Below, one piece after another: positions 4,031 through 27,064 of a DNA stretch of 53,974 nt; the first letter of the stretch is position 1; each line of letters opens with the position of its first letter. A program made the position numbers and the translations under genes. This DNA is from Candidatus Woesearchaeota archaeon (lineage in GTDB: Archaea > Nanobdellota > Nanobdellia > SCGC-AAA011-G17 > JACPIM01). The stretch lies in NCBI GenBank assembly GCA_018302125.1, contig JAGWAC010000004.1:1-53974 (forward strand), in the 5' to 3' direction. The notes under the pieces were generated by a model. That model worked only from the letters and a program-made list of their open reading frames with translations. It was not told where the DNA came from and did no database searches.

Positions 4031-6028
4031 TTATCTAATTGGTGCTTCTTCAATTTTTGGTGCTGTAGAGGAATTAAAATCCATTAAATGTCCAACTACT
4101 GCTTTAGCACCCCTTATTGTATAAAGGACATCATCAAAATTTTTTATTTTTTTCAAATGCTTAAGAACATATCTTGGATCTAAAAATATGTGATAGATTT
4201 TATTATTTAATTTTATAACTTCTTGTGGAGTCATATCAGGTGTCTTAAATACAGGCTCTCTCATATCAAATCTTTCATAATTTCTTGGATCAAATAAGAA
4301 CCAATTTTTTTCCATACCCTCTTTGTATAATGGGGTTCCTGGATATGGAATAATTACTGTACTTTGTAAAACATCAACGAATCCTTTTAACATCAATTTT
4401 TTTGCTAATTTGTAAGTTTCTAAACCATCTGCCTTAGTTTCCCATGGCGCCCCACACATCATAGTCAGATGTACAGTTAATCCTGCTGCCTTCGCTTCTC
4501 GACAACTTTTTTCTACTTCTTCTATTTTAGTTCCTTTGTCTAATTTATTTATCGTGCTCTGGACTCCAGACTCTAATCCATATTTTAATAATCTGAAACC
4601 AGCTTCTTTCATTAATTTGTAATCTTCTGCTGTCACTGCACCAAATCTCATGTTGCCAGAGTAAATAACTTTTTTATTATAACCTGATTCAATCATTAAA
4701 TTACAGAATTTTTTTAACCAAGGACCAACAATAATTGTTCCAGCATCATCAAAAATTTCTTTTACACCAATTTCATCAACTAAATACTTTACTTCTTTCA
4801 TAACATTTTCAGGAGATCTTCCCCTAAATTGCCCTTTAGGATACAGATTAGTGTCCCAAACACAATTAGCAGCACCAATTAAATTGGCAGTATAAGAATG
4901 TATATTTTCAACTGATAAATTATAAACATCTCCGTAATATTCTTCTTTTTTAATTTCTTTTATTGGAAAAGTTGAAAATTCATTTGCTTTATTTAATTCG
5001 ATTTTAGTTTCTAAAAATAAAACATTAGATTTAATTTGAAGATTAAAAATACACTCTTTTTTTACATGAGAAGTCAATAAATCCCCAATTTCTAATTCTT
5101 GAGATTCAATAAATTTAGGTTTATTTTCTCCTTTTTTAATTACAAAAAGTTTATGGTTCGGAGTGCAGTTAATATCATTTAATTCTGACTTTATTACTAT
5201 TAAATCTCCAGAATAATATCTCTGAAAAATAAAATTATTTTTATGATATTGGCCATTATGGGTTAAAATTTCTTCACCTAATTTTATATCTTTAATCTCT
5301 TTAATACCACTTTTAGTCATAATATTAGTTTCTGGGTGGAAACAGAATGTGCATTTTCCGTACCAGCAATCTCTTCCAGCCATTATATAAGCTAAAGGCC
5401 TTCCAATTAAATTAAATTCATGTTGATACAAATGATTTTTAGTAAATACTCTGTCAATAATTGGGGCATCATCTAAATTTCCAGTAAAATTATATCTTCC
5501 ATTCTCAACAACTTTTCCATTTTCTTTATACCAAATTCCTTGTGGTATTTTATTTCCTTTTTCCAATGCTTCAACTAATTCACAAAATGCAAAATCAAAA
5601 TAACCGCCATTAATTATAAAATCAACTTTGCAGTTTTCCATAAACTCTTTTTGCAGTTCTAATTCTAAATCTAAAGCAGAAACATGATCGCCCATCACGC
5701 ATATTTTCATATCAGGAAATTTTTCTTTTAATCTGTTAATAGTATCCCAATGAATCTTTACAACTGGTGCCTTGGTTTCAAAAAATAGAATTTCTGGTTT
5801 TTTCTCTTCTAGCAATTTGTCAAAATCAGAAGGACTTAATTTTTCAGCTATAGAGTCAACCCAAGTAACTTCATGCCCCTTGTCTCTCAACATTGTGGCT
5901 CCAGTAGCTAAAACAACAGGAAATAAAGTAGTATGAACATGGAAAACTTGATATTGTCTGTTCTGGCTTAATAAGGGAGTGCCTTTAAACCTGGTTACAG
6001 TGGGAGGATAGCCTATAAAAATTCTCAT
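4031..6028 (-). CDS. B12-binding radical SAM protein with intein
   Basis: 665-residue precursor. Residues 1-150 are a cobalamin-binding Rossmann-type domain, and residues 210 onward form the radical SAM barrel. The cluster motif is interrupted: C221 and C226 are followed by a 160-residue intein (229-388), and the third cysteine is C389 after it. Excision would give CWYGKCTFCVWDTNLYP, a normal CX3CX2C site followed by the usual RGRSPENV segment. The mature enzyme would be 505 residues. B12-radical SAM enzymes carry out methylations and rearrangements; this one's substrate is unknown. Its place beside glycosyltransferases suggests lipid or glycan modification. It is probably a single-gene unit starting at 6028. 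Confidence 0.88.
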   Translation of the reverse strand: MRIFIGYPPTVTRFKGTPLLSQNRQYQVFHVHTTLFPVVLATGATMLRDKGHEVTWVDSIAEKLSPSDFDKLLEEKKPEILFFETKAPVVKIHWDTINRLKEKFPDMKICVMGDHVSALDLELELQKEFMENCKVDFIINGGYFDFAFCELVEALEKGNKIPQGIWYKENGKVVENGRYNFTGNLDDAPIIDRVFTKNHLYQHEFNLIGRPLAYIMAGRDCWYGKCTFCFHPETNIMTKSGIKEIKDIKLGEEILTHNGQYHKNNFIFQRYYSGDLIVIKSELNDINCTPNHKLFVIKKGENKPKFIESQELEIGDLLTSHVKKECIFNLQIKSNVLFLETKIELNKANEFSTFPIKEIKKEEYYGDVYNLSVENIHSYTANLIGAANCVWDTNLYPKGQFRGRSPENVMKEVKYLVDEIGVKEIFDDAGTIIVGPWLKKFCNLMIESGYNKKVIYSGNMRFGAVTAEDYKLMKEAGFRLLKYGLESGVQSTINKLDKGTKIEEVEKSCREAKAAGLTVHLTMMCGAPWETKADGLETYKLAKKLMLKGFVDVLQSTVIIPYPGTPLYKEGMEKNWFLFDPRNYERFDMREPVFKTPDMTPQEVIKLNNKIYHIFLDPRYVLKHLKKIKNFDDVLYTIRGAKAVVGHLMDFNSSTAPKIEEAPIR
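4865..5344 (-). other. mini-intein in radical SAM cluster motif
   Basis: Encodes residues 229-388 of the radical SAM precursor. Splicing blocks are visible: block A CFHPETNIMTKSG with Cys1, block B NCTPNHKLFV with the Thr and His, block F DVYNLSVENIHSYTAN, and block G IGAAN followed by Cys+1. At about 160 residues, with only some 65 residues between blocks B and F, there is no room for a LAGLIDADG homing endonuclease. The residue before the terminal Asn is Ala instead of the common His, a known but unusual variant. The +1 nucleophile is itself the third cluster cysteine of the host enzyme. Confidence 0.9.
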
Positions 6029-25576: not shown

Positions 25577-25657
25577 GAATTATAGGAAAAAACTTATAAA
25601 ACTTTTTAATTATCAAAAAACTTAAATATATTTAATTTTAAAGAAAAGGTAAAGACT

Positions 25658-27064
25658 ATGTTTGATGTTTTGTTGATTAATCCTCCTTATTTTAAAAAGG
25701 GAGGTAACATATGGAAGACTGTTTCTAGTTGCATGCCCCCATACGGTTTAGCTGTTTTAGCAGCTTGTATAGAGCAAGCAGGATTTAAAGTAAAAATTTT
25801 AGATACTTACGCAGAACAATTGGCAGTAGATGATGTTGAAGAATATCTAAAAAATAATTATGATGAACCCAGGTTTATTGGATTGACATCTAGTACAGTA
25901 AATGTAAAACAAGCTTATGCAGTATCTGATATTTGCAAAAAACTTTGGCCAAATGCAAAAATGATTTTTGGTGGTGTCCATGCAACATCAAAACCAGAAG
26001 AACCATTAAAAAACAATGCAGCACATTTTGTAGTTCGGGGTGAAGCAGAATACACTTTTGTAGATTTAATTAAAGGTCATTCATTAAAAGAAATTAAAGG
26101 CCTGACTTACTTTAATGAAAATAAAGAAATTGTTCATAATCAAGAAGGGGAATTTGTTGATTTGGATAAATTGCCAATGCCAGCATATCATTTGATTCCA
26201 ATGCATAAATATTTTCCTGCAGTTGGTTCTTACAAAAGGCTTCCTGCAATGAATGTTGTTACATCAAGAGGCTGTCCAGGTAAATGCACATTTTGTTATC
26301 AGCCTTTTGGAAATGCATTAAGGCAAAGGTCCCCAAGAAAAATAGTTGATGAAATAAAAATATTAGTTGAAAAATATGGAACAAAAGAAATCTGTTTTTA
26401 TGATGATAATTTTACTACTTTTAAGCACAAAACAAGAGAATTCTGTAATATATTATTAGAGGAAAAAATTGATATAAGTTGGATATGTTTTGCAAGGGTA
26501 GATTGGATAGATATTGATTTATTAAAATTAATGAAAAAAGCTGGATGTCACCAGATATTGTTTGGGGCAGAATCAGGAAATCAGCAGATATTAAACAATA
26601 TAAGAAAAAATATTACTCCCGAAAAAATAAAGAATGCAGTCAGGGCTGCTCAAGAAGCAGATATTGATTGTAGGGTTACTTTCTTATTTGGTTGTCCAGG
26701 TGAAACAGAAGAAACAATGGAAGAAACAATAAAATTCGCTTTGGAATTAAATCCAGATATTGCTTTATTTAACATAGTCTCTCCTAATCCCGGAACTCAA
26801 ATGTATGATTGGGCAGTTAAAAATAATTATTTAAAAACAGAACAATGGGATGAATATGATTGGGGGGAAGTTCTTCTTAACTTGCCAACAGTATCTCCAG
26901 ATAAAGTAAAACATTATTATAAAATGGCTTATAGAAGATTCTACTTAAGGCCAAGATATATTGTCAGAAGATTGATGAAAATTAGGGATAAAAATGATAT
27001 TGTAAATATTATGTATGGCGCAAAGGCAATTTTGAATGTTTTAAGAATGTACAACAGCCATTAG
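25658..27064 (+). CDS. B12-binding radical SAM protein
   Basis: 468 residues. The N-terminal 140 residues form a cobalamin-binding domain (VLLINPPYFKKGG, then LGLTSSTVNVKQAY-like segments). The radical SAM motif is TSRGCPGKCTFCYQPFG near residue 205, followed by QRSPRKIVDEI, as in the intein-bearing protein at 4031 but uninterrupted. The C-terminal RPRYIVRRLMKIRDKND tail also resembles that paralogue. It is probably expressed alone or with the membrane protein 31 bases downstream. Methyl transfer or ring rearrangement on a lipid or glycan is a guess from the setting. Confidence 0.88.
   Translation: MFDVLLINPPYFKKGGNIWKTVSSCMPPYGLAVLAACIEQAGFKVKILDTYAEQLAVDDVEEYLKNNYDEPRFIGLTSSTVNVKQAYAVSDICKKLWPNAKMIFGGVHATSKPEEPLKNNAAHFVVRGEAEYTFVDLIKGHSLKEIKGLTYFNENKEIVHNQEGEFVDLDKLPMPAYHLIPMHKYFPAVGSYKRLPAMNVVTSRGCPGKCTFCYQPFGNALRQRSPRKIVDEIKILVEKYGTKEICFYDDNFTTFKHKTREFCNILLEEKIDISWICFARVDWIDIDLLKLMKKAGCHQILFGAESGNQQILNNIRKNITPEKIKNAVRAAQEADIDCRVTFLFGCPGETEETMEETIKFALELNPDIALFNIVSPNPGTQMYDWAVKNNYLKTEQWDEYDWGEVLLNLPTVSPDKVKHYYKMAYRRFYLRPRYIVRRLMKIRDKNDIVNIMYGAKAILNVLRMYNSH

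Follow-up and report, generated by a model that had tools for sequence, protein, structure and literature searches.

The open reading frame at 4031–6028 on the minus strand of the window (the whole 53,974-nucleotide stretch of DNA analyzed here) encodes a 665-residue cobalamin-type radical SAM enzyme interrupted by a 160-residue mini-intein, which sits immediately N-terminal to the third cysteine of the [4Fe-4S] cluster motif. The intein itself belongs to an already known kind of object, the class 1 mini-intein. The more interesting result is the recurrence of its site, by which a single oddity becomes a natural experiment with replicates: inteins have entered the same position in six or more radical SAM families of archaea, from more than one origin, and it is also occupied by split inteins in contigs from a phage collection. 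It has long been asked whether inteins are ever of use to their hosts, and redox control has been proposed for only a few, among them the P. abyssi MoaA intein. With the window, the same cysteine geometry is now seen in a second host family that is unrelated to the first, and the existence of natural intein-bearing and intein-free relatives within one genus makes a fair comparison possible.

Intein Architecture and Identity

The sequence across the two junctions reads ...RDCWYGKCTF/CFHPET...LIGAAN/CVWDTNLYP, with slashes marking the points of insertion. The N-extein (residues 1–228; 5345–6028, minus strand as for all features of this gene), delimited by homologue alignment, comprises a B12-binding-like domain and the start of the radical SAM domain and ends in CWYGKCTF. 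The intein (residues 229–388; 4865–5344) is of class 1 type and has no endonuclease domain, and the C-extein (residues 389–665 plus the stop codon; 4031–4864) starts with Cys+1 and contains the remainder of the radical SAM domain, as recognized by PF04055. A preliminary description of this DNA had placed a mini-intein at 4865–5344, before the third cluster cysteine, and this placement proved exact, corresponding to 160 intein codons, with profiles and AlphaFold/Foldseek in agreement.

The excised 160 residues match Pfam Intein_splicing (PF14890) with 41.1 bits (cut-off 35.8, E 2e-10) and TIGR01445 (intein_Nterm) with 32.2 bits (cut-off 24.5), and the score for TIGR01443 (intein_Cterm), 15.4, falls slightly below its cut-off of 15.6. 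The AlphaFold model of the intein has a mean pLDDT of 81 (six alleles were modelled) and gave 44 Foldseek matches in the PDB at E ≤ 1e-3, to Hint/intein structures, the best E-value for inteins being 2.5e-6. The model of the 665-residue precursor resembles the B12-type radical SAM enzymes AprD4, TsrM, and MgmA, with inteins further down the Foldseek list; its confidence is below 50 at the junction residues 224–228 and 386–395, and thus the geometry of Cys221, Cys226, Cys229, and Cys389 cannot be taken from it. The presence of an 81% identical, intein-containing homologue in a second genome (G002, locus L112; Woesearchaeota) shows that the insertion is not an assembly artefact, and intein-free homologues show the product sequence expected from splicing. 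The identity of residues 229–388 as an intein is secure and, judged from sequence, excision of the intein and ligation of the exteins are very likely.

The class 1 motifs are present, namely Cys1 (Cys229; 5342–5344), found by sequence reading and in the alignment of six same-site alleles, the block B TxxH motif (Thr289-Pro-Asn-His292; 5153–5164), the block F histidine (His377; 4898–4900), the terminal asparagine (Asn388; 4865–4867), and Cys+1 (Cys389; 4862–4864). In intein numbering C1, C60, T61, H64, and N160 are invariant in all six alleles. Two positions are non-canonical, with Asn370 at the block F aspartate and Ala387 at the penultimate histidine, both of these being residues that are common in class 1 inteins without defining them. 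Cys288 (5165–5167), an extra intein cysteine directly N-terminal to TxxH, corresponds to C60; the Tes and SPASM inteins that were read lack it, and it may serve as an additional thiol or metal ligand.

Cys389 forms an invariant alignment column and, as had been proposed, becomes the third cluster ligand once the protein is spliced, the host motif CWYGKCTF being followed directly by this residue. It had also been claimed that no cluster could form before splicing. However, Cys1 of the intein fills the third-ligand position, such that Cys221 (5366–5368), Cys226 (5351–5353), and Cys229, the first two of which are invariant in the homologue alignments, make up an intact CX4CX2C motif in the precursor, and the sequence therefore does not require cluster binding to wait for splicing. 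What the sequence does show is competition of the step 1 nucleophile and the third ligand for one position, and capture of a cluster by the precursor would block Cys1.

Same-site Alleles, Mobility, and Selection

Inteins at the same junction were found in five further archaeal genomes (G002, G018, G033, G049, and G214), and the Tes inteins of NCBIfam NF045703 occupy the same motif position. An intein-profile search of 103 genomes from the order of the window gave matches only in G002, G018, G033, G049, and the genome of the window itself (G000). Five of the six alleles are mini-inteins of 156–170 residues, and that of G049 has 432 residues and includes a LAGLIDADG domain (PF14528, LAGLIDADG_3, 51.6 bits). 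Because G049 retains this domain at the same site, the mini forms are taken to be derived.

On the extein tree, the presence and absence of the intein requires four changes rather than one, and G214, which has the intein, and G365, which lacks it, belong to one genus and are sisters with a support of 100/100. Between the distant carriers G000 and G018 the intein and extein have diverged to a similar extent (51 and 53% identity, respectively). Estimates of dN/dS (NG86), for which dS is near saturation, are 0.27 (G000/G002) and 0.12 (G018/G033) for the intein and 0.075 and 0.071 for the extein of the same pairs. The intein values argue that selection still maintains splicing in the mini forms, which are unable to home. 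This pattern is that of an old homing intein whose mini descendants must still splice, and the window's allele is the remnant of a mobile intein under purifying selection. Purifying selection on splicing carries no information on regulation.

The Ala387-Asn388 end of block G (4865–4870) had been taken to suggest slowed splicing. The penultimate histidine is, however, missing from all six alleles (Ala in the window, Ser in the other five), including the endonuclease-bearing G049, and likewise from DnaE inteins. As the five other alleles and the MoaA/Tes inteins end in Ser-Asn, the Ala-Asn end is no sign of a crippled intein. Asn replaces the block F aspartate throughout the six alleles, and in place of the block F histidine G049 has Gln and G214 has Arg; consequently, splicing efficiency is not readable from the sequence. 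In the Npu DnaE intein the penultimate residue is not histidine. Its splicing half-life is given in a review as 1 min or less, with the rate of Ssp DnaE similar to that of standard inteins. Functional inteins without a penultimate histidine are known (PMC3922620).

The 829-kb genome of the window contains 26 Intein_splicing matches in ∼13 open reading frames (on contigs C5, C7, C9, C17, C18, C22, C28, and C32), with hosts that include EF-2-like, TFB-like, and topoisomerase I-like proteins and, each with several inteins, a CDC48-like AAA ATPase and a secretion-ATPase-like protein. One of its loci (C18:69968-70600) has four stops and is decayed in appearance.

A Recurrent Insertion Site in Radical SAM Enzymes

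Searching three archaeal phyla with profiles of these inteins, and collecting those at the junction before the third cysteine, gave ∼20 archaeal alleles in six radical SAM families, including the six alleles of the window's family. The other hosts are a MoaA/AhbD-like SPASM protein (L178; CNFHCQH/C), Tes together with a Tes-family member (L197, L198, L229, L230, L253, L256, and L236; same junction), NrdG2 (L212; TIGR02495, 225 bits; CNFRCPY/C), NrdG2-like proteins (L234, L235, and L245; same junction), and BchE/HpnJ-like B12 proteins (L231 and L232; CPFCCDF/C). Among the CX3CX2C hosts within 60 loci, no intein was found at any other position, and none before the first or second cysteine, in a search that was not designed to count these. 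A single clade of all the radical SAM motif inteins, although allowed on small trees, was rejected on a 37-sequence tree (AU p 5.3e-6) that has long branches and in which these inteins take several placements. The position ahead of the third radical SAM cysteine is thus a recurrent intein hot spot that has been invaded more than once.

In two phage-type contigs, recovered by a scan of viral contigs, a split intein divides a radical SAM gene (PHROG Fe-S oxidoreductase) at this junction. In L263:1797-4162 the N half reads ...CAQGCSF/CFHAG and the C half ...LVSN/CHENS, with an HNH-like fragment between the halves; in L268:1839-4127 the corresponding sequences are ...CDMNCKF/CFVDG and ...LVHN/CHENS, with an HNH-type endonuclease open reading frame in between. 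These inteins share the radical SAM motif position with that of the window but are not close to it in sequence, and they are split over two genes in contigs from a virus collection, whereas the window intein is uninterrupted. A viral source for the window's allele was considered and set aside, the scan having given only partial matches of 27–42% identity.

The penultimate histidine is absent in 16 of 18 archaeal alleles at the site (five of the six host families) and present in 16 of 16 first-round comparison inteins. Its loss was rejected as a signature of the site, as the BchE/HpnJ-like inteins L231 and L232 have it and DNA polymerase II-like inteins lack it; moreover, its state changes only four times on the tree, with which an independent-pairs test cannot reach significance. 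The idea that the loss is a safety catch tied to Cys-3 is weakened by thioredoxin-reductase-like (CAT/C) and PorB-like (CPG/C) inteins, which have both Cys-3 and the histidine.

Many related archaeal inteins were seen directly before a cysteine of iron-sulfur or redox proteins, named here from motif reading: IscU/NifU-like (L172, L181, L237, and L243), SufB-like (L180, L185, and L189), thioredoxin-reductase-like (L182 and L183), and PorB-like (L191 and L241). In L251 (CVFCGFC), the intein precedes the first of the cysteines in a ferredoxin-type motif.

Comparison with the MoaA/Tes and DnaE Inteins

In the P. abyssi MoaA intein, according to two reviews (PMC10663303, PMC3922620), a disulfide between Cys-3 of the N-extein and Cys1 stops the first step of splicing and reduction releases it. 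The NCBIfam model NF045703 describes the Thermococcales tetraether lipid synthase Tes with its intein and, as its annotation and MoaA-like profile matches suggest, would cover the protein formerly named P. abyssi MoaA. Its cut-off was exceeded in two genomes, both of which read CNLSCWY/C...SN/CFFYAKEG, with the same junction and the same Cys-3. Alignment of an intein-free Tes to the model picks up again exactly at the third cysteine, which confirms the junction independently. Among the intein-bearing NCBIfam models, NF045703 also gave the top match to each of the five same-site alleles scanned, reaching 97.6 bits over 389 residues in the full-length allele of G049.

The MoaA/Tes inteins and that of the window both lie directly before the third radical SAM cysteine, with the second cluster cysteine as Cys-3 and with Cys1 and Cys+1; the penultimate Ser of the MoaA/Tes inteins is shared with the five other same-site alleles. 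The MoaA/Tes inteins, in contrast, keep the LAGLIDADG domain and reside in a MoaA/SPASM-like host (Tes) with CX3CX2C, whereas the window's is a mini-intein in another radical SAM family. A 19-sequence tree is compatible with common descent of the two groups (AU p 0.4), but in the 37-sequence tree they are separated by well supported branches. They therefore share the site but probably arrived separately, as far as the trees indicate. The geometry of the redox trap is present in the window intein as Cys226-Thr-Phe-Cys229, and the preliminary description's proposal of thiol-sensitive splicing is accordingly plausible, by analogy with the P. abyssi protein. The Ssp and Npu DnaE inteins are also of class 1, with Cys1, Cys+1, TxxH, Asn, and an Ala-Asn or Ser-Asn end without penultimate histidine, but they are split and interrupt a DNA polymerase, whereas the window's intein is in cis and interrupts a radical SAM enzyme.

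Proposed Mechanism and Alternatives

We consider it likely that the window's class 1-type mini-intein derives from a LAGLIDADG-bearing mobile intein that homed into the radical SAM [4Fe-4S] motif, at the codons immediately preceding its third cysteine, that it splices spontaneously, that it survives chiefly as a genetic parasite, domesticated or in decay, at a site that would not tolerate imprecise loss, and that its splicing is probably sensitive to oxidation. Self-removal would most likely proceed spontaneously by an N–S shift at Cys229, transfer to Cys389, and cyclization of Asn388, and the joined CWYGKCTFC would then bind the cluster. Because Cys226 is at -3 to Cys1, a Cys226–Cys229 disulfide would probably hamper splicing under oxidation, as in the homologously placed P. 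abyssi intein. We infer both the splicing activity and its redox sensitivity; a physiological switch remains a hypothesis.

The intein could instead be a plain genetic parasite that splices constitutively and efficiently with no meaningful redox sensitivity, a reading that we regard as doubtful but a serious contender. The sporadic distribution, the endonuclease-bearing allele, and the empty site within the same genus all speak for it, as does insertion into a highly conserved catalytic motif, the usual habit of inteins; yet the chemistry of a CXXC pair that includes the splicing nucleophile makes thiol sensitivity likely, and the MoaA intein is a precedent. It seems unlikely that the intein is retained for its benefit as a redox checkpoint, in which the oxidized Cys226–Cys229 pair stops step 1 and an oxygen-labile enzyme is finished only in a reduced cell. 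The Cys-3/Cys1 pair occurs in every radical SAM motif intein read, but the CXXC spacing of the host motif is enough to produce it, so its conservation is no evidence of regulation. Endonuclease-free mini-inteins persist in several lineages and disulfide control has been reported for P. abyssi MoaA (PMC10663303, PMC3922620), but close homologues live without the intein and, according to one review, there was as of 2014 no demonstrated case of conditional splicing with physiological relevance. Recurrence of the site alone cannot separate these two readings, because a parasite that targets conserved, indispensable codons with Cys as the +1 residue and a redox gate both predict it. A broader proposal is improbable, namely that the site is a hot spot because the nucleophile sits inside the cluster motif, with splicing gated by a Cys-3/Cys1 disulfide or by cluster or metal capture at an intact CX3–4CX2C, such that checkpoints for oxygen or iron-sulfur status were gained independently by several anaerobic archaea and phages.

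Highly improbable, in our view, is a checkpoint by cluster capture, in which the precursor binds [4Fe-4S] or Zn(II) through Cys221, Cys226, and Cys229 and hides the nucleophile, making splicing and loading mutually exclusive. The precursor does retain CX4CX2C with Cys1 as the third ligand, the invariant Cys288 adjoins TxxH, and inhibition of inteins by zinc and copper is known (from titles cited in PMC3922620), but the junction is modelled with low pLDDT, and cysteines beside a folded Hint domain may miss cluster geometry. A splicing-defective remnant, with a dead host enzyme or a decaying gene, is barely credible. The non-canonical penultimate histidine, block F aspartate, and (in some alleles) block F histidine would fit it, but the frame is uninterrupted in six genomes, dN/dS is well below 1 in intein and extein, and a non-His block G is also found in the endonuclease-bearing allele and in the MoaA/Tes inteins.

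The Host Enzyme and Its Gene Neighborhood

PF04055 (Radical_SAM) matches the host with 43.5 bits over residues 398–541, compared with 55.3 bits in an intein-free homologue, and the B12-binding match at the N terminus is weak. The best named matches of the extein are HpnJ (152.8 bits, cut-off 577.6) and BchE (102.7 bits, cut-off 481.35), both far under the curated cut-offs for membership. The host thus resembles HpnJ/BchE-like cobalamin-binding radical SAM enzymes in these matches and in its AprD4/TsrM/MgmA-like model but differs from them in its scores and in its CX4CX2C motif. Close homologues without the intein occur in 14 genomes of the window's own phylum (371 searched). The best 80 homologous loci in a bacterial and archaeal genome collection included 69 that were readable across the motif, and all 69 have CX4CX2C (68 intein-free and one, that of G002, with the intein); this spacing, one residue longer than the canonical CX3CX2C, is therefore a family trait. 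The homologue in G163 (L060; G163:C25:5749-7197) contains one in-frame TGA.

The same minus-strand run as the gene includes two family 2 glycosyltransferases, an LPG-synthase-like membrane protein, a Glycos_transf_4 protein, and an STT3-like oligosaccharyltransferase, a context from which a role of the host enzyme in glycan or lipid modification might be guessed. A second B12-type radical SAM open reading frame in the window (25610–27064) has the canonical motif CPGKCTFC, is intein-free, and shares 31% identity with the C-extein.
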